Below, piece by piece: positions 16,481-40,922 of a DNA stretch of 64,000 nucleotides. The stretch covers positions 1 to 64,000 of the forward strand of contig NZ_JACKZY010000001.1 of assembly GCF_020833685.1 (NCBI RefSeq). Reading direction: 5' to 3'. Position numbers and translations under genes: made by a program. The stretch's first letter is position 1. Every line of letters begins with the position of its first letter. This DNA is from Nitratireductor sp. B36. Lineage in GTDB: Bacteria > Pseudomonadota > Alphaproteobacteria > Rhizobiales > Rhizobiaceae. The notes under the pieces were generated by a model that made no database searches, was not told where the DNA came from, and was given only the letters and a program-made list of their open reading frames with translations.

Positions 16481-17794
16481 ATGAGTGATCTCTTTTCCAA
16501 TCCCGATGAAAGCGGCGCGCGCGTCAACCGTCCGCTCGCTGATCGCCTGCGGCCACAGAAACTCGACGAGGTGGTGGGCCAGGAGCATCTGACGGGCCCC
16601 GATGGGGTTTTGACCCGCATGATCGCAAGCCGCTCGCTGGGGTCGCTCATCTTCTGGGGACCGCCGGGCACCGGCAAAACCACGGTCGCGCGTCTTCTGG
16701 CCGGTGAAACGGAGCTGGCCTTCGAGCAGATCTCGGCGATCTTCTCAGGCGTGGCGGACTTGAAGAAAGTGTTCGAGGCGGCCCGTCTCAGGCGCAGTCA
16801 GGGAAGGCAGACGCTTCTGTTCGTCGACGAAATCCATCGCTTCAATCGCTCGCAGCAGGATTCGTTTCTGCCGGTGATGGAGGACGGCACCGTCGTGCTG
16901 GTCGGCGCGACAACGGAGAACCCGTCCTTCGAGCTCAACGCTGCGCTTCTGTCGCGTGCCCGTGTGCTCAATTTCAACACGCTCGGACCGGAAAGCCTGT
17001 TGCGCCTGCTCGAACGCGCTGAGGCGCTGGAGGAAAAGCCTTTGCCGCTGGATGAAGAGGCGCGGGCGGTTCTTGTGCGCATGGCCGATGGCGATGGACG
17101 CGCTTCGCTCACGCTTGCCGAAGAGGTCTGGCGTGCGGCGCGGGAGGGCGAGGTGTTCGATGCGGAGGCGCTGCAGCGTGTCGCCCAGCGCCGTGCCCCT
17201 GTCTACGACAAGGGGCAGGACGGGCACTACAATCTGATTTCCGCCCTGCACAAATCCGTTCGCGGCTCCGATCCCGACGCGGCACTGTATTATCTCTGCC
17301 GCATGTTCGATGCGGGCGAGACTCCGCTCTATATCGGCCGCAGGCTTGTGCGCATGGCTGTGGAAGACATTGGTCTTGCCGATCCTCAGGCTCTCGTCAT
17401 CGCCAATGCGGCCAAGGATGCCTATGAATATCTCGGATCGCCGGAGGGCGAGCTCGCTCTGGCGCAGGCTTGTGTCTATCTGGCGACAGCACCGAAATCG
17501 AATGGCGTCTACACCGCTTTCAAACAGGCCTTTGCCGACGCGAAGGCCAACGGCTCCCTTCTGCCGCCCAAGCACATTCTCAACGCGCCGACCAAACTCA
17601 TGAAGGAGACCGGTTACGGGGCCGGCTATGCCTATGATCACGACCAGCCGGATGCGTTTTCCGGGCAAAATTACTTTCCCGAAGAGATGGGGCGCAAGCG
17701 CTATTACGACCCGCCGGAGCGGGGTTTTGAACGTGAGATCCGCAAGCGGCTGGATTATTGGGCGCGCCTGCGCAAGGAGCGGGGAGAGCCATGA
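16481..17794 (+). CDS. rarA: Replication-associated recombination protein A (AAA+ ATPase)
   Basis: RarA/MgsA (437 residues) is a clamp-loader-like AAA+ protein acting at stalled forks. Walker A GPPGTGKTTVARL is at about residues 58-70, Walker B LLFVDEIHRFNRSQQDSFLP follows, and sensor 1 is VGATTENPSFE. The C-terminal tetramerisation/WHIP-type region contains KGQDGHYNLISALHKSVRGS and YYPEEM-like FPEEMGRKRYYDPPERGFE. Length is standard. The short gaps on both sides suggest cotranscription with the upstream protease and with crcB. Confidence 0.96.
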   Translation: MSDLFSNPDESGARVNRPLADRLRPQKLDEVVGQEHLTGPDGVLTRMIASRSLGSLIFWGPPGTGKTTVARLLAGETELAFEQISAIFSGVADLKKVFEAARLRRSQGRQTLLFVDEIHRFNRSQQDSFLPVMEDGTVVLVGATTENPSFELNAALLSRARVLNFNTLGPESLLRLLERAEALEEKPLPLDEEARAVLVRMADGDGRASLTLAEEVWRAAREGEVFDAEALQRVAQRRAPVYDKGQDGHYNLISALHKSVRGSDPDAALYYLCRMFDAGETPLYIGRRLVRMAVEDIGLADPQALVIANAAKDAYEYLGSPEGELALAQACVYLATAPKSNGVYTAFKQAFADAKANGSLLPPKHILNAPTKLMKETGYGAGYAYDHDQPDAFSGQNYFPEEMGRKRYYDPPERGFEREIRKRLDYWARLRKERGEP

Positions 17795-33484: not shown

Positions 33485-34075
33485 ATGCAGCTTCGCAAGC
33501 TCGTTTCGTCTGCGCTCGTGGTCGGGGCCTTTCTTGCCGGGCTCGGCGTGGCATCAGCCGCCGAGCCGGAGAATACAATGATTCTAACGCTCAAAAACGG
33601 CGAGGTGACCATAGCGTTACGACCAGATCTCGCACCGAAACATGTGGAGCAGGTCAAGGCCCTGGTTGCGGAGGGGGCTTACGACAATGTCGCTTTTCAT
33701 CGGGTCATCGATGGCTTCATGGCGCAGACCGGTGATGTTCAGTACGGTGATGTCGAGGACGGATTTGATGCACGGCGTGTCGGAACCGGCGGTTCGGACA
33801 AACCCAATTTGCCGGCGGAATTCTCTGAGGCTGCGTTCACGCGCGGCACCGTCGGGATGGCACGCTCCCAGGATCCCAACTCCGCCAATTCTCAGTTTTT
33901 CATCATGTTCGCCCCTGCCGAACACCTGAACGGACAATACACGGTGATCGGTGAGGTCGAATCGGGCATGGAACTGGTCGATGCGATCAAGAAGGGCGAT
34001 GCGGCACAGAATGGTATGGTGCAGAACCCGGACAAGATCCTGAGTGCACGCATGGCAAGTGACGGCGCGAATTGA
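33485..34075 (+). CDS. ppiA: Exported cyclophilin-type peptidyl-prolyl isomerase
   Basis: This 196-residue protein has a signal peptide (hydrophobic AFLAGLGVASAAEP, cleavage near residue 23-25). A cyclophilin domain follows, with FHRVIDGFMAQTGD and the MARSQDPNSANSQFFIMFA active-site segment. It should speed proline isomerisation in periplasmic protein folding. GGAGAG precedes the ATG. It is paired with a cytosolic paralogue 27 nt downstream, from which it differs by the signal and by a short insert (VQYGDVEDGFDARRVGT). Confidence 0.94.
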   Translation: MQLRKLVSSALVVGAFLAGLGVASAAEPENTMILTLKNGEVTIALRPDLAPKHVEQVKALVAEGAYDNVAFHRVIDGFMAQTGDVQYGDVEDGFDARRVGTGGSDKPNLPAEFSEAAFTRGTVGMARSQDPNSANSQFFIMFAPAEHLNGQYTVIGEVESGMELVDAIKKGDAAQNGMVQNPDKILSARMASDGAN

Positions 34076-34102
34076 ACGCGTCGACAAAAGAAAGGTTTAA
34101 GA

Positions 34103-34579
34103 ATGGCTGATATCAAGGATCCGGAAAACACCATCGTGATGGAAACGACCAAGGGCAAGGTCATCATCCAGCTCTTTCCGGACGTCGCTCCCGAACATGT
34201 GAAGCGCATCAAGGAACTCGCGCGCGACAAGTTTTACGATGGTATCGTGTTCCATCGTGTGATCGACGGTTTCATGGCGCAAACCGGAGATCCGACCGGT
34301 ACGGGTATGGGCGGATCGGACAAGCCTGATCTCAAGGCCGAGTTCTCGAACATGGCTCATGAACGCGGCACCTGCTCGATGGCACGTTCGCAGAACCCGA
34401 ACTCTGCCAACTCCCAGTTCTTCATCTGCTTCAACAAGGCGCCTTGGCTCGATCGTCAGTACTCCGTCTGGGGTCAGGTGACTGAAGGCATGGACAGTAT
34501 CGACAAGATCAAGCGTGGCGAGCCGGTCTCCGAACCCGACTCCATCATCTCCATGCGGGTCGCGGCGGACGTTGCCTAA
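34103..34579 (+). CDS. ppiB: Cytosolic cyclophilin-type peptidyl-prolyl isomerase
   Basis: This 158-residue cyclophilin has no signal peptide. Active-site segments are FHRVIDGFMAQTGDPTGTG and MARSQNPNSANSQFFICF, with WLDRQYSVWGQVTEGMDSID near the C-terminus. It acts in the cytosol in general folding. The AAAGG before the ATG is good. It and the upstream exported paralogue look like an old tandem duplication divided between two compartments. Confidence 0.95.
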   Translation: MADIKDPENTIVMETTKGKVIIQLFPDVAPEHVKRIKELARDKFYDGIVFHRVIDGFMAQTGDPTGTGMGGSDKPDLKAEFSNMAHERGTCSMARSQNPNSANSQFFICFNKAPWLDRQYSVWGQVTEGMDSIDKIKRGEPVSEPDSIISMRVAADVA

Positions 34580-36839: not shown

Positions 36840-36965
36840 ACAAGCTTGCCCAAAGAATGAGCAAGTCACTCGACTTGCAGCTCAGTAATTGTGCATCATC
36901 TCCCGTTCTCTGCTCCAATTGTCGTAACATTTAGAAACGACTTGCTTTTTTCCGGCTTCCCCGTT

Positions 36966-36990
36966 GAAATGCTTCTGAGAGGAGCATTTC
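36966..36990 (+). promoter_or_regulatory. Hairpin enclosing the ribosome binding site of the Anbu module
   Basis: The perfect 8-bp arms GAAATGCT / AGCATTTC frame a 9-nt loop (TCTGAGAGG) and end exactly at the TTG start of the ATP-grasp gene. The ribosome binding site GAGAGGAG is in the loop and the first bases of the right arm. As RNA it could gate translation; as DNA it could be a dyad operator. Confidence 0.6.
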
Positions 36991-38400
36991 TTGACGCCAT
37001 TTGACGAGATGCGCCTGGGGGGCCAGGCCCGAGATCCCTACGAAGATTACCAGAGCTGGTTTGACCGGCAGGACGCCAAACGCCTGAAGCAGAAGGCGGG
37101 CGACGCGGAACGGGTTTTCCGCAGAACCGGTATCACTTTTGCTGTCTATGGCGATCAGGAGGCGGCGGAACGGCTGATCCCGTTCGACATTGTCCCACGC
37201 ATCATCTCCGGCAAGGAATGGCGCCGGCTGGTCCAGGGGATCGAGCAGCGTGTTCAGGCGCTCAATGCGTTTCTCGAAGACATCTATCATCGACAGGAAA
37301 TTCTGCGTGCGGGGCGCATACCCCGCGAAATCATCTCCGGCAATGAGGCCTTCTTGCCGGAAATGATCGGTGTGAAACCGCCTGGAGGGGTCTACACCCA
37401 CATTACCGGCGTCGACATTGTACGGACTGGGGAAGACGACTTCTTCGTTCTGGAAGACAATGCCCGCACCCCCTCAGGTGTCTCTTATATGCTGGAAAAC
37501 CGGGAGACCATGATGCAGCTCTTTCCCGAGCTGTTTCAGCAGGTCAAGGTGCGCCCGGTCGAGAATTACCCGCAGCTCCTGCGCGATTCTCTCGCCCGCG
37601 TGAAACCGGAGCTTTGCGAGGGAAAGCCGACCATCGCCGTTCTGACACCCGGTAGCTTCAATTCAGCCTATTTCGAGCATGCTTTCCTCGCCGACCAGAT
37701 GGGCGTGGAACTGGTGGAAGGATCGGATCTCCGCGTTGTGGACGGTCATGTGGCCATGCGAACCACGCAGGGCTACAGGCGTATTGATGTTCTCTATCGC
37801 AGGATTGACGACGACTATCTCGACCCGCTGACCTTCCGGCCGGACTCGGTCCTTGGTGTGCCGGGCATCATGGATGTCTATCGGGCCGGCAAGATCACCA
37901 TTGCAAACGCTCCGGGGACCGGGATATGCGACGACAAGGCGATTTATTCCTATATGCCCGAGATTGTGGAGTTTTATACGGGGCGCAAGGCGATTTTGCC
38001 CAATGTTCCCACCTGGCGCTGCTCGGAGCCGGACAGTCTTGCCTATGTGCTTGAACATCTTGACGAGCTGGTCGTCAAGGAAGTCCATGGTTCCGGCGGT
38101 TATGGCATGCTGGTGGGGCCAGCCGCTTCGAAGAAGGAGAGGGCGGCTTTTGCAAAGAAACTGAAGGCCCGGCCGAAAAACTACATCGCCCAGCCGACGC
38201 TATCGCTCTCCACCTGTCCGATCCTGACCAGCAAGGGGCTGGCGCCACGCCATGTGGATCTGCGCCCCTTCGTCCTCGTGTCGGATCGCATTCGGATCGT
38301 ACCGGGTGGGCTCACGAGAGTGGCGTTGAAGAAGGGATCCCTCGTGGTCAACTCCTCACAAGGGGGTGGAACCAAGGATACCTGGGTTCTCGATGATTAG
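36991..38400 (+). CDS. Circularly permuted type-2 ATP-grasp protein (TTG start)
   Basis: This 469-residue protein belongs to the circularly permuted ATP-grasp group (DUF404/DUF407 type). The motifs are RTGITFAVYGDQEAAERLIP, the FLEDIYHRQEILRAGRIPRE helix, VDIVRTGEDDFFVLEDNART and VVKEVHGSGGYGMLVGP (about residues 357-373). The family is proposed to make amide or peptide bonds with ATP; the substrate is unknown. It begins with TTG 6 nt after GAGAGGAG. It heads a four-gene unit with the alpha-E, transglutaminase and Anbu genes (gaps 11, 10 and 35 nt). Confidence 0.92.
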   Translation: MTPFDEMRLGGQARDPYEDYQSWFDRQDAKRLKQKAGDAERVFRRTGITFAVYGDQEAAERLIPFDIVPRIISGKEWRRLVQGIEQRVQALNAFLEDIYHRQEILRAGRIPREIISGNEAFLPEMIGVKPPGGVYTHITGVDIVRTGEDDFFVLEDNARTPSGVSYMLENRETMMQLFPELFQQVKVRPVENYPQLLRDSLARVKPELCEGKPTIAVLTPGSFNSAYFEHAFLADQMGVELVEGSDLRVVDGHVAMRTTQGYRRIDVLYRRIDDDYLDPLTFRPDSVLGVPGIMDVYRAGKITIANAPGTGICDDKAIYSYMPEIVEFYTGRKAILPNVPTWRCSEPDSLAYVLEHLDELVVKEVHGSGGYGMLVGPAASKKERAAFAKKLKARPKNYIAQPTLSLSTCPILTSKGLAPRHVDLRPFVLVSDRIRIVPGGLTRVALKKGSLVVNSSQGGGTKDTWVLDD

Positions 38401-38411
38401 GGCGCGCTGAC

Positions 38412-39353
38412 ATGCTTCTTGGACGTTCAGCAAACGGTCTTTACTGGATGGCCCGTTACATCGAGCGGGCGGAGAACATGGCGCGTCTGGTCGATACCGG
38501 GCTGAGGCTTGCTTTGACCCAGACCAGCGCCTCATCTGATGAATGGGCATCGGTTCTCACGAGCGCCGGTGTGCGTGATCTGTTTGAACAGGGCAATGAT
38601 GCGTTTGACACGGCCACGGTGACAAATTTCCTGCTCCGGGACACGGCGAACCCCTCTAGCGTGCTGTCTTCCATAGATACGGCGCGGATGAACGCGCGGA
38701 TGGTGAGGACAGCGCTCACACGAGAGACGTGGGAGAGTGTCAACGAAGCATGGATGGCCATGCATCGCATGCTCAAACGGCGCGTCGACGAGCAGGACCT
38801 GCCTGCCGTTCTTGATGCGGTCAAACGCGAAACAGCACTTATTCGTGGCGCGTTTCAAGGCACGATGCTGCGCAACGAAATCTTCGATTTCGCGCAGATG
38901 GGTACGATGATTGAACGCGCGGACAACACGTCCCGCATTCTTGATGTCAAATACTATGTGCTTCTGCCCTCGGCCGCTTGGGTCGGTTCCCCACTCGACA
39001 ATATCCAGTGGCAAACGATCTTGCGTTCAGTCTCCGCCCTGCGGTCATACCGCTGGACCCATGAAGGTGATTTCAATCCGGCAAACATTGCCGATTATCT
39101 CATATTGAACCGGCGCATGCCGCGGTCCCTGGCGTTCTGTTACCGGCATATCTGTGATTCTCTGGACTATCTGGCGGATGAATATGGTGTGCGGCAACGG
39201 TGCAATGAGATGGCCGATGCCAAATTCGAGAAACTGAAAACGGCCGCAGTTTCGGATATATTCGATGAAGGTTTGCACGAATTTTTGAGTGATTTTATCC
39301 GCGACAATGCCGCTTTGGGCAATCAGATCGCAACAGATTTCCGCTTTTATTGA
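38412..39353 (+). CDS. Alpha-E domain protein
   Basis: This 313-residue, almost all-helical protein has the family N-terminus LLGRSANGLYWMARYIERAE and LRSYRWTHEGDFNPANIADY near residue 215. Alpha-E proteins are nearly always encoded with circularly permuted ATP-grasp and transglutaminase-like proteins. They may act as a partner or carrier in the same peptide-bond reaction. No catalytic motif is recognised. It begins 11 nt after the ATP-grasp gene and ends 10 nt before the next start. Confidence 0.92.
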   Translation: MLLGRSANGLYWMARYIERAENMARLVDTGLRLALTQTSASSDEWASVLTSAGVRDLFEQGNDAFDTATVTNFLLRDTANPSSVLSSIDTARMNARMVRTALTRETWESVNEAWMAMHRMLKRRVDEQDLPAVLDAVKRETALIRGAFQGTMLRNEIFDFAQMGTMIERADNTSRILDVKYYVLLPSAAWVGSPLDNIQWQTILRSVSALRSYRWTHEGDFNPANIADYLILNRRMPRSLAFCYRHICDSLDYLADEYGVRQRCNEMADAKFEKLKTAAVSDIFDEGLHEFLSDFIRDNAALGNQIATDFRFY

Positions 39354-39363
39354 GGGCAATCCG

Positions 39364-40158
39364 ATGCGTCTGAAAATCACTCACCGGACAGAATACCGCT
39401 ATGATGCCCCTCTTTCCTATGCGTTGCAGCGCCTTCGGCTGTGCCCTCAAAGCGGCCCGACCCAGGACGTTGTGGAGTGGTCGTTGAAGACAGAAGGCGC
39501 GACTGAGGAAGCACAATTCATCGATGGCTTTGGCAACGACACGCGTCTGGTGAGTATAGATGGCGAACCGCACACGATCGTTCTTCAAGCATCGGGCATC
39601 GTGGAAACCCGTGACACCGCGGGGGTCACGGGCAAGCATCAGGGGCTCGCTCCGTTATGGCTTTTTGAGCAGCAGACCCCACTTTGTACGGCTGGACGCG
39701 GGATAGCAGCGTTGGTGCGCGACATCACAGGTGCCGCTGATGTGGAGCGATTGCATGCCCTGATGAATGAAGTGCGCGAGCGCGTCGCCTATCGGATCGG
39801 CGCCACGGACGCGGCCACGACGGCGGAAGAGGCGCTCGCAAACGGTGAGGGGGTCTGCCAGGATCACACCCACATCTTCCTGGCATCTGCGCGACTGATG
39901 GGCTTTCCCGCGCGGTATGTGAGCGGATACCTGCGGATGGATGACAGTGATGATCAGGCTGCGAGCCATGCTTGGGCCGAAGCGCATCTGGAAGGGCTGG
40001 GCTGGGTTGCCTTTGATTGCTCCAACGGCATTTCGGCGGATGATCGGTATGTCCGGGTGGCCACGGGGCGTGACTACCGCGATGCGATGCCTGTGATGGG
40101 GATCAGAATCGGTCACGCTCAGGAAGAGCTTGCGGTTCAGATCACGGTGGAGCAGTAG
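39364..40158 (+). CDS. Transglutaminase-like cysteine protease
   Basis: This 264-residue protein has a bacterial transglutaminase N-domain (MRLKITHRTEYRYDAPLSYA) and a papain-like core with the triad Cys165 (GEGVCQDHTHIF), His202 (ASHAWAEAH) and Asp218 (AFDCSNG). Such proteins are more likely to be proteases or amidases than crosslinkers. No signal peptide is seen. The ATG matches the family start; an earlier in-frame ATG would overlap the alpha-E gene by 65 nt. In this operon it may remove or process what the ATP-grasp enzyme adds. Confidence 0.93.
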   Translation: MRLKITHRTEYRYDAPLSYALQRLRLCPQSGPTQDVVEWSLKTEGATEEAQFIDGFGNDTRLVSIDGEPHTIVLQASGIVETRDTAGVTGKHQGLAPLWLFEQQTPLCTAGRGIAALVRDITGAADVERLHALMNEVRERVAYRIGATDAATTAEEALANGEGVCQDHTHIFLASARLMGFPARYVSGYLRMDDSDDQAASHAWAEAHLEGLGWVAFDCSNGISADDRYVRVATGRDYRDAMPVMGIRIGHAQEELAVQITVEQ

Positions 40159-40193
40159 TCTTTCAGAGCGAATCTTTATGAGGCACGGTCCAG

Positions 40194-40922
40194 ATGACCT
40201 ATTGCGTCGGGCTGAAAACGCAGCATGGCCTTGTGTTCATGTCGGACACACGGACAAATGCCGGCGTGGACAACATTTCCACCTTTCGCAAAATGCATTG
40301 CTGGCAAAAGCCGGATGACCGCGTTCTGGTACTGCTTTCGGCTGGCAATCTGGCAACCACACAAGCCGTGGTCAGCCTGCTTGACGAGCGTACCAAGGCG
40401 CCGGATGAACGAACTCCCTCCATGATTGAAACGCCATCCATGTATCAGGCGGCCCGCCTGGTCGGTGATACGGTGAAGGAAGTTATCCGTCAGTCGGCGC
40501 CCGTCGGACAGAGTGCTGACGCTTTTGGCGCCTCCTTCATCCTTGGTGGCCAGATCCGCGGCATGGCACCGCGCCTGTTCCTGATTTACCCGGAGGGGAA
40601 TTTCATTGAGGTCAGCGCCGATACGCCGTTCTTCCAGATTGGCGAGACCAAATATGGCAAACCCATTCTGGTGCGTGCGTTCGATCCGGCCATGAGCCTG
40701 GAGGAAACGGTGAAGCTTCTGTTGGTTTCCTTCGATTCCACGCTGAAGTCCAATTTGTCCGTCGGCCTGCCAATCGATCTTTTATACTATGAGAACGACA
40801 CGTTCCGCATCGGCTACGAAAAGCGCATCGAAGCCGACGATCCCTATCTGCGGGAAATCTCGGAGGGCTGGTCCGACGCGTTGAAGAGGGCTTTCAAGAG
40901 TCTTCCTGACTTCAAGCGCTAG
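40194..40922 (+). CDS. Anbu, proteasome-related self-assembling peptidase
   Basis: This 242-residue protein has the Ntn-hydrolase fold of proteasome beta subunits and HslV. After loss of Met, Thr1 would be the nucleophile (TYCVGLKTQHGLVFMSDTRT), with Asp17 in SDTRTNAG and Lys32 in FRKMHCW. It lacks a propeptide. Anbu (ancestral beta subunit) homologues form lock-washer rings in published structures, and their natural substrate is not settled. No ATPase such as HslU or ClpX is next to it. GAGGCACGG precedes the ATG. It is the last gene of the module. Confidence 0.93.
   Translation: MTYCVGLKTQHGLVFMSDTRTNAGVDNISTFRKMHCWQKPDDRVLVLLSAGNLATTQAVVSLLDERTKAPDERTPSMIETPSMYQAARLVGDTVKEVIRQSAPVGQSADAFGASFILGGQIRGMAPRLFLIYPEGNFIEVSADTPFFQIGETKYGKPILVRAFDPAMSLEETVKLLLVSFDSTLKSNLSVGLPIDLLYYENDTFRIGYEKRIEADDPYLREISEGWSDALKRAFKSLPDFKR

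Follow-up and report, generated by a model that had tools for sequence, protein, structure and literature searches.

The Anbu operon of Nitratireductor sp. B36: a possible amide-making and amide-cutting module, linked to nitrogen starvation in some lineages

We analysed a stretch of 64,000 nucleotides (nt) from Nitratireductor sp. B36 (contig NZ_JACKZY010000001.1, positions 1 to 64,000), referred to as the window. According to its open reading frame (ORF) listing, four complete and tightly spaced genes occupy positions 36991–40922, all on the + strand. They encode a circularly permuted ATP-grasp enzyme, an Alpha-E protein, a transglutaminase-like protein and Anbu, a proposed precursor of the proteasome. 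An earlier note, made from the sequence alone, had described four packed genes of these families; all were found complete, on the same strand and matched in Pfam, and the enzyme classes given there agree with the Pfam and PDB matches. The features of the operon are as follows (aa, amino acids; Ntn, N-terminal nucleophile).

36931..36990, + strand, operon leader with an AGGAG ribosome site and the block AGAAAC-N2-CTTGC
36991..38400, + strand, circularly permuted ATP-grasp enzyme (PF14403/PF04174), 469 aa, TTG start; CP_ATPgrasp_2 E 2e-168
38412..39353, + strand, Alpha-E protein (PF04168), 313 aa; Pfam E 1.2e-91
39364..40158, + strand, transglutaminase-like cysteine hydrolase (PF08379+PF01841), 264 aa; Transglut_core E 6.9e-23, Bact_transglu_N E 2e-20
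40194..40922, + strand, Anbu, proteasome-like Ntn hydrolase, 242 aa; Pfam Proteasome E 9.7e-10

The genes are separated by 11, 10 and 35 nt. The TTG start of the ATP-grasp gene is supported by the ribosome-site block AGAGGAGCATTTCTTGACGC, which is identical in two Nitratireductor relatives. The ATP-grasp protein matches the CP_ATPgrasp Pfam profile above cut-off, with the conserved positions kept, and PDB 3n6x (E 1e-194), an entry titled putative glutathionylspermidine synthase. The Alpha-E protein is all-helical in its AlphaFold model, with a predicted local distance difference test score (pLDDT) of 90. The PDB chains closest to the window's Anbu carry that name (5loy, E 2e-96; 5nyj, E 7e-86). 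Of its top five structure matches (E 2e-96 to 8e-64), three are named Anbu and two Peptidase; the match that follows, a proteasome beta subunit, has an E-value of 2e-4. PDB 5lox, an entry named Peptidase, is Anbu according to PMC8665760. Among the best 80 of 595 named loci, the nearest relative of the window's Anbu is that of Nitratireductor aquibiodomus (96%); identity to Anbu of sampled genomes of the same family is at most 75%. Profile searches of the source genome found one copy each of Alpha-E, ATP-grasp and Bact_transglu_N and two proteasome-family proteins.

Residues and promoters were tallied for ORFs that span 70% or more of the profile; with second and fused copies counted, these number 83 for ATP-grasp, 80 for Alpha-E, 83 for the transglutaminase-like family and 101 for Anbu. 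The earlier note had read the triad Cys165-His202-Asp218 of the transglutaminase-like protein as intact. This is correct, and the triad is nearly invariant, its three residues being unchanged in 82, 82 and 83 of the 83 proteins aligned (C190/H227/D243 in the alignment, which is numbered from a GTG 25 aa upstream). Thr1-Asp17-Lys32 of Anbu was also named correctly: T2, which is Thr1 once Met is removed, is kept in 100, and D18 and K33 in all, of the 101 sequences. In a separate alignment (A1), one of 16 Anbu sequences has Ser1 instead of Thr1. The ER motifs of Alpha-E (E18-R19, E168-R169) are kept in 77 to 80 of 80 and invariant in 36.

The window copy has the same four genes, gene order and catalytic residues as the published Anbu operon, and no departure was seen; it is an ordinary member of this known family and adds no new system. 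The operon, its gene order and the idea of peptide synthesis are in print in PMC5666114 and PMC6376114, both of which refer to Valas and Bourne (2008) and to Iyer et al. (2009). The idea that an amide is made and then cut is that of Iyer et al. (2009), as cited in both papers. The operon and the peptide-tag idea are already known. An open-ring (lock-washer) assembly has been published for Anbu homologues (PMC5666114, PMC6376114). An ATP-grasp homologue from an operon of this type releases phosphate from ATP (PMC6376114), and Thr1 of Pseudomonas aeruginosa Anbu reacts with epoxomicin and MG132 (PMC5666114). The operon genes are reported to be dispensable in the absence of stress, and the authors regard peptide synthesis as less likely than degradation (PMC5666114). 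The present work adds that ATP-grasp and Alpha-E share their distribution, that Anbu is nested within it and that every genome with this pair has the transglutaminase-like family, Anbu or both, together with the association with Peptidase_Mx and the sigma-54 counts.

Gene order was compared in 101 Anbu loci: the window and 100 selected loci, roughly one for each genus with a few second members added, which is not a random draw. Only matches with a listed place were chosen (G016 and G257, for example, were left out), and each stretch covers at most 8 kilobases (kb) on each side, some stopping at a contig end. ATP-grasp, Alpha-E, transglutaminase-like and Anbu genes follow one another in this order on one strand in 64 of the 101 loci, so that the arrangement in the window is not due to chance. 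A search for this order across genomes had been proposed in the earlier note; the order recurs, as was already known in print. The three internal gaps are 60 nt or shorter in 53, 62 and 47 of the 64 loci, and the exact pattern is present in 65 of the best 80 of the 595 named loci. In four further loci of the 101 the ATP-grasp and Alpha-E genes precede Anbu without an intervening transglutaminase gene, 19 have no module gene in the stretch around Anbu, and 14 show other arrangements. No recurrent fifth gene was found at a fixed place among families present in at least four of the Anbu loci. Small ORFs next to the operon showed no conservation either, their largest family reaching 4 of 64 loci. 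In L082–L085, L089, L092, L124 and L125, Anbu shares its stretch with a large ATP-grasp/transglutaminase system, comprising an ATP-grasp protein of 840–872 aa (L082–L085) and/or a transglutaminase-domain protein of 1035–1221 aa. Two Anbu matches of genome G204 (L106, L107) have no ATP-grasp match in either stretch.

The distribution of the families was determined in one sample of 377 Pseudomonadota genomes with five profile queries. Per genome, at most 7 candidates were scored for Anbu, 6 for Alpha-E, 5 for ATP-grasp, 14 for Bact_transglu_N and 7 for Peptidase_Mx; because only these first candidates were scored, the absence of a family can be a miss. All tallies over genomes and loci ignore kinship. 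Matches were obtained for Anbu in 151 genomes, Alpha-E in 217, Peptidase_Mx in 77, CP_ATPgrasp_2 in 220 (217 above cut-off) and Bact_transglu_N in 214 (213 above cut-off). The genomes with ATP-grasp and those with Alpha-E are the same 217, assuming that the three weakest ATP-grasp matches are those below the cut-off, and this putative ligase pair is found in 127 of 222 genera. Anbu accompanies the pair in 148 genomes and occurs without it in 3; 69 genomes have the pair without Anbu and 157 have neither (Fisher 6e-46, uncorrected for phylogeny). Owing to the identical genome sets and the nesting of Anbu within them, ATP-grasp and Alpha-E look like the core, and Anbu like an addition that accompanies the core with three exceptions.

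All 217 genomes that hold the ligase pair contain the transglutaminase-like family, Anbu or both. Bact_transglu_N is without a match in six of them, all of which have Anbu; the family occurs without the pair in three genomes. A third candidate hydrolase is Peptidase_Mx, a putative zinc enzyme: 74 of its 77 genomes hold the pair (Fisher 5.6e-17, uncorrected). In 3 of the 101 loci (L096, L100, L112) the protein encoded beside Anbu has both a Zn_ribbon_DZR_6 and a Peptidase_Mx domain, and the stretch contains no transglutaminase gene. The hydrolase role that the earlier note had assigned to Anbu and the transglutaminase-like protein gains support from these three loci, where the neighbour of Anbu is a putative zinc peptidase and no transglutaminase gene, and from the six genomes. 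We examined 40 Peptidase_Mx matches, one each from 40 of the 77 genomes (in G137 and G155 the copy omitted is the one within 1 kb of a transglutaminase match). HExxH is kept in all 40, 11 share their stretch with a module gene and 9 have one no more than 1 kb away, and linked Peptidase_Mx genes mostly adjoin one for a large transglutaminase-domain protein.

Published expression data connect related operons with nitrogen. Pseudomonas putida has a four-gene run like that of the window, PP_2688–PP_2685, with a transglutaminase-domain protein (PP_2686) and a proteasome-beta-like protein (PP_2685); NtrB/NtrC control is called likely, and PP_2686–PP_2688 are raised 11- to 37-fold under nitrogen limitation (PMC7801951). 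PP_2687 would correspond to Alpha-E and PP_2688 to ATP-grasp by gene order. In Burkholderia cenocepacia, a related cluster belongs to the regulon of NtrC and sigma-54 and is downregulated in an ntrC mutant (PMC5491218). This cluster, I35_5080-83 (DUF404/407-DUF403-transglutaminase), shares the ATP-grasp, Alpha-E and transglutaminase-like parts with the window but differs in a second, large transglutaminase-domain protein, and no Anbu is named for it in the text at hand (PMC5491218). The same domains have been linked to urea metabolism in marine metagenomes (PMC3597751), and a regulatory region belonging to COG2308, whose product is a circularly permuted ATP-grasp, is among candidates for nodule competitiveness (PMC8407117). 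The function is still unproven, but in calling the role undescribed the earlier note omitted the published control by nitrogen starvation.

Upstream regions were scored for a sigma-54 element over 11 consensus positions, with GG and GC intact. At least 10 positions matched in 17 of 83 ATP-grasp upstream regions, in none of the 83 when the opposite strand of this DNA was scored, in 2 of 128 conserved neighbour genes and in 11 of 1849 other ORFs, a control set that includes ORFs that are no genes. With at least 9 positions the counts are 30 of 83, 4 of 83, 3 of 128 and 99 of 1849. The 17 ATP-grasp genes are spread over 11 families, one of them the window's own (L033). Upstream of the window operon the best sigma-54-like site matches 9 of 11 positions, with GT replacing GG. 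The block AGAAAC-N2-CTTGC (36933–36945) is conserved in three Nitratireductor-like sequences and is not sigma-54-like. A simple scan of both strands gave 3 promoter-like sites (1.9 expected), one of them on the + strand inside the Alpha-E gene (39234–39262), and 8 terminator-like sites (4.5 expected, standard deviation 2.2); it placed no + strand terminator-like site in the operon gaps.

The reading we favour, with a probability of about 0.4, is that a ligase core makes an amide, which exchangeable hydrolases then cut, and that nitrogen starvation induces the ligase in some lineages. ATP-grasp and Alpha-E would act as a single unit that spends ATP to couple a carboxylate with an amine, a protein tag being a less likely product than a small molecule or a short peptide. 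The amide may be cut again by hydrolases that differ in their nucleophile, namely the transglutaminase-like cysteine enzyme and Anbu, a threonine enzyme; some lineages may use a zinc enzyme as well. Since nitrogen starvation appears to switch on the module in several lineages, the cycle is probably a means of storing, shuttling or recovering amine nitrogen. A possible functional analogue is gss of Escherichia coli, annotated as glutathionylspermidine synthetase/amidase, in which a ligase is fused to an amidase; hhalign gave a probability of 0.1–0.2 for a sequence relation to it, a weak test as gss was entered as a single sequence. A bolder proposal, which we consider doubtful, denies Anbu the function of a proteasome: ATP-grasp and Alpha-E would be the constant core, an amide ligase of nitrogen starvation, and three interchangeable amide hydrolases (Cys, Thr, Zn), Anbu among them, would undo its reaction in a nitrogen cycle on some small molecule or short peptide.

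A number of observations weigh against an amide cycle of this kind. Co-expressed operon products showed no specific interaction, Anbu was inactive on proteasome substrates, and neither glutamine nor glutamate nor Anbu increased phosphate release by ATP-grasp in the experiments described in PMC6376114. P. aeruginosa Anbu was likewise inactive on casein and many peptides (PMC5666114), and PMC8665760 and the cited Anbu papers give Anbu no known function or substrate in the parts available. The Anbu gene of P. putida, PP_2685, is only 1.1- to 4.8-fold up and off the significant list (PMC7801951). Upstream of the window operon, no sigma-54 -24/-12 element that matches at least 9 of 11 positions retains both GG and GC, whereas the P. 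putida run is probably controlled by NtrB/NtrC. Among 72 close named loci (8 of 80 were dropped), an element with at least 10 positions precedes 1 and with at least 9 precedes 9, compared with 0 and 3 on the reversed DNA. These counts make a good case for the nitrogen link in several lineages and give it no promoter support in the close relatives of the window; for the window's own organism it is an extrapolation.

Points of the same kind come from the genomes. That none of the 217 lacks both hydrolases may be chance, with a probability of about 0.10 for the six transglutaminase-less genomes, or 0.07 for seven if the weak match of G165 is counted as absent. The excess of Peptidase_Mx in transglutaminase-less genomes is weak (4 of 6, p 0.18; 5 of 7 with G165, p 0.047), and no module gene was found in the stretch around Peptidase_Mx in 29 of 40 loci; because of this weak and mostly unlinked association, a swap from the transglutaminase-like protein to Peptidase_Mx is no more than suggested. 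Finally, three genomes without an ATP-grasp or Alpha-E match retain an intact Anbu (L095, L127, L128; family f48, genus g137). The ratio of nonsynonymous to synonymous differences (pN/pS) between these copies, all from one genus, is 0.09–0.15. Anbu without the ligase is thus still under purifying selection and can do something alone, which counts against its being only a servant of the ligase. The genes beside Anbu in these loci are conserved within that lineage.

Anbu might instead be a genuine protease, with the ATP-grasp pair attaching tags and the transglutaminase-like enzyme removing them, so that protein nitrogen would be recycled in starvation. This agrees with its proteasome fold family and kept catalytic residues, with the reactivity of Thr1 towards epoxomicin and MG132, with the preference of the authors of PMC5666114 for protein degradation and with raised Anbu in nitrogen-limited P. 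putida (PMC5666114). We nevertheless regard it as unlikely, as the locus contains no unfoldase, no tag-sized gene was found beside the operon, and the published work detected neither activity on casein and many peptides (PMC5666114) nor an interaction between partners (PMC6376114). The same results bear on the earlier note, which had the ATP-grasp/Alpha-E pair making a peptide or isopeptide tag that is trimmed by the transglutaminase-like protein and cleaved by Anbu. Making and then cutting was already published and the hydrolase part is supported, but the tag is disfavoured: no interaction of the products and no Anbu activity are in print in the texts available, and no fifth gene or small ORF was found. 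Co-purification of the products, which the note had suggested, had already been tried with a negative result (PMC6376114).

If a peptide natural product or a protein modification were made and trimmed, as Iyer et al. (2009) are cited as proposing, Anbu and the transglutaminase-like enzyme would be maturation peptidases. ATP-grasp family membership and the tight packing of the operon fit this published hypothesis (PMC5666114, PMC6376114). It seems distinctly unlikely, however, given that no conserved precursor gene was found and no fifth gene recurs at a fixed place in at least four loci. The pair is also present in 127 of 222 genera, unlike most special metabolites, which are less widespread. 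More improbable still is that Anbu is functionally separate from its neighbours, the operon reflecting only shared nitrogen regulation. The 19 loci without a module gene in the stretch, the three genomes that keep Anbu under selection without the ligase pair and the negative published pull-downs (PMC6376114) would be explained in this way, but 148 of the 151 Anbu genomes hold the pair somewhere.

The operon is flanked upstream by queuosine-synthesis and tRNA-ribosyltransferase genes and downstream by genes for a DeoR-type regulator and a glycerophosphate-oxidase-like protein (Pfam). That no AAA+ unfoldase is near Anbu, as the earlier note had stated, is true of the locus. Within the 64 kb (150 of 185 candidates scored), AAA or AAA_2 was matched only by a 437-aa protein at 16481–17794, about 19 kb away, which we take to resemble RarA. 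The second proteasome-family protein of the source genome adjoins an AAA_2 protein on another contig and is probably HslV. At 33485–34579, two neighbouring ORFs encode similar putative cyclophilin-like proteins, the first with a signal-peptide-like beginning as read from the sequence.

The amide cycle with exchangeable hydrolases, which we favour, bears on how a substrate of Anbu is sought. If Anbu is indeed an exchangeable hydrolase, the hunt for its substrate would shift from proteins to amides of nitrogen limitation.

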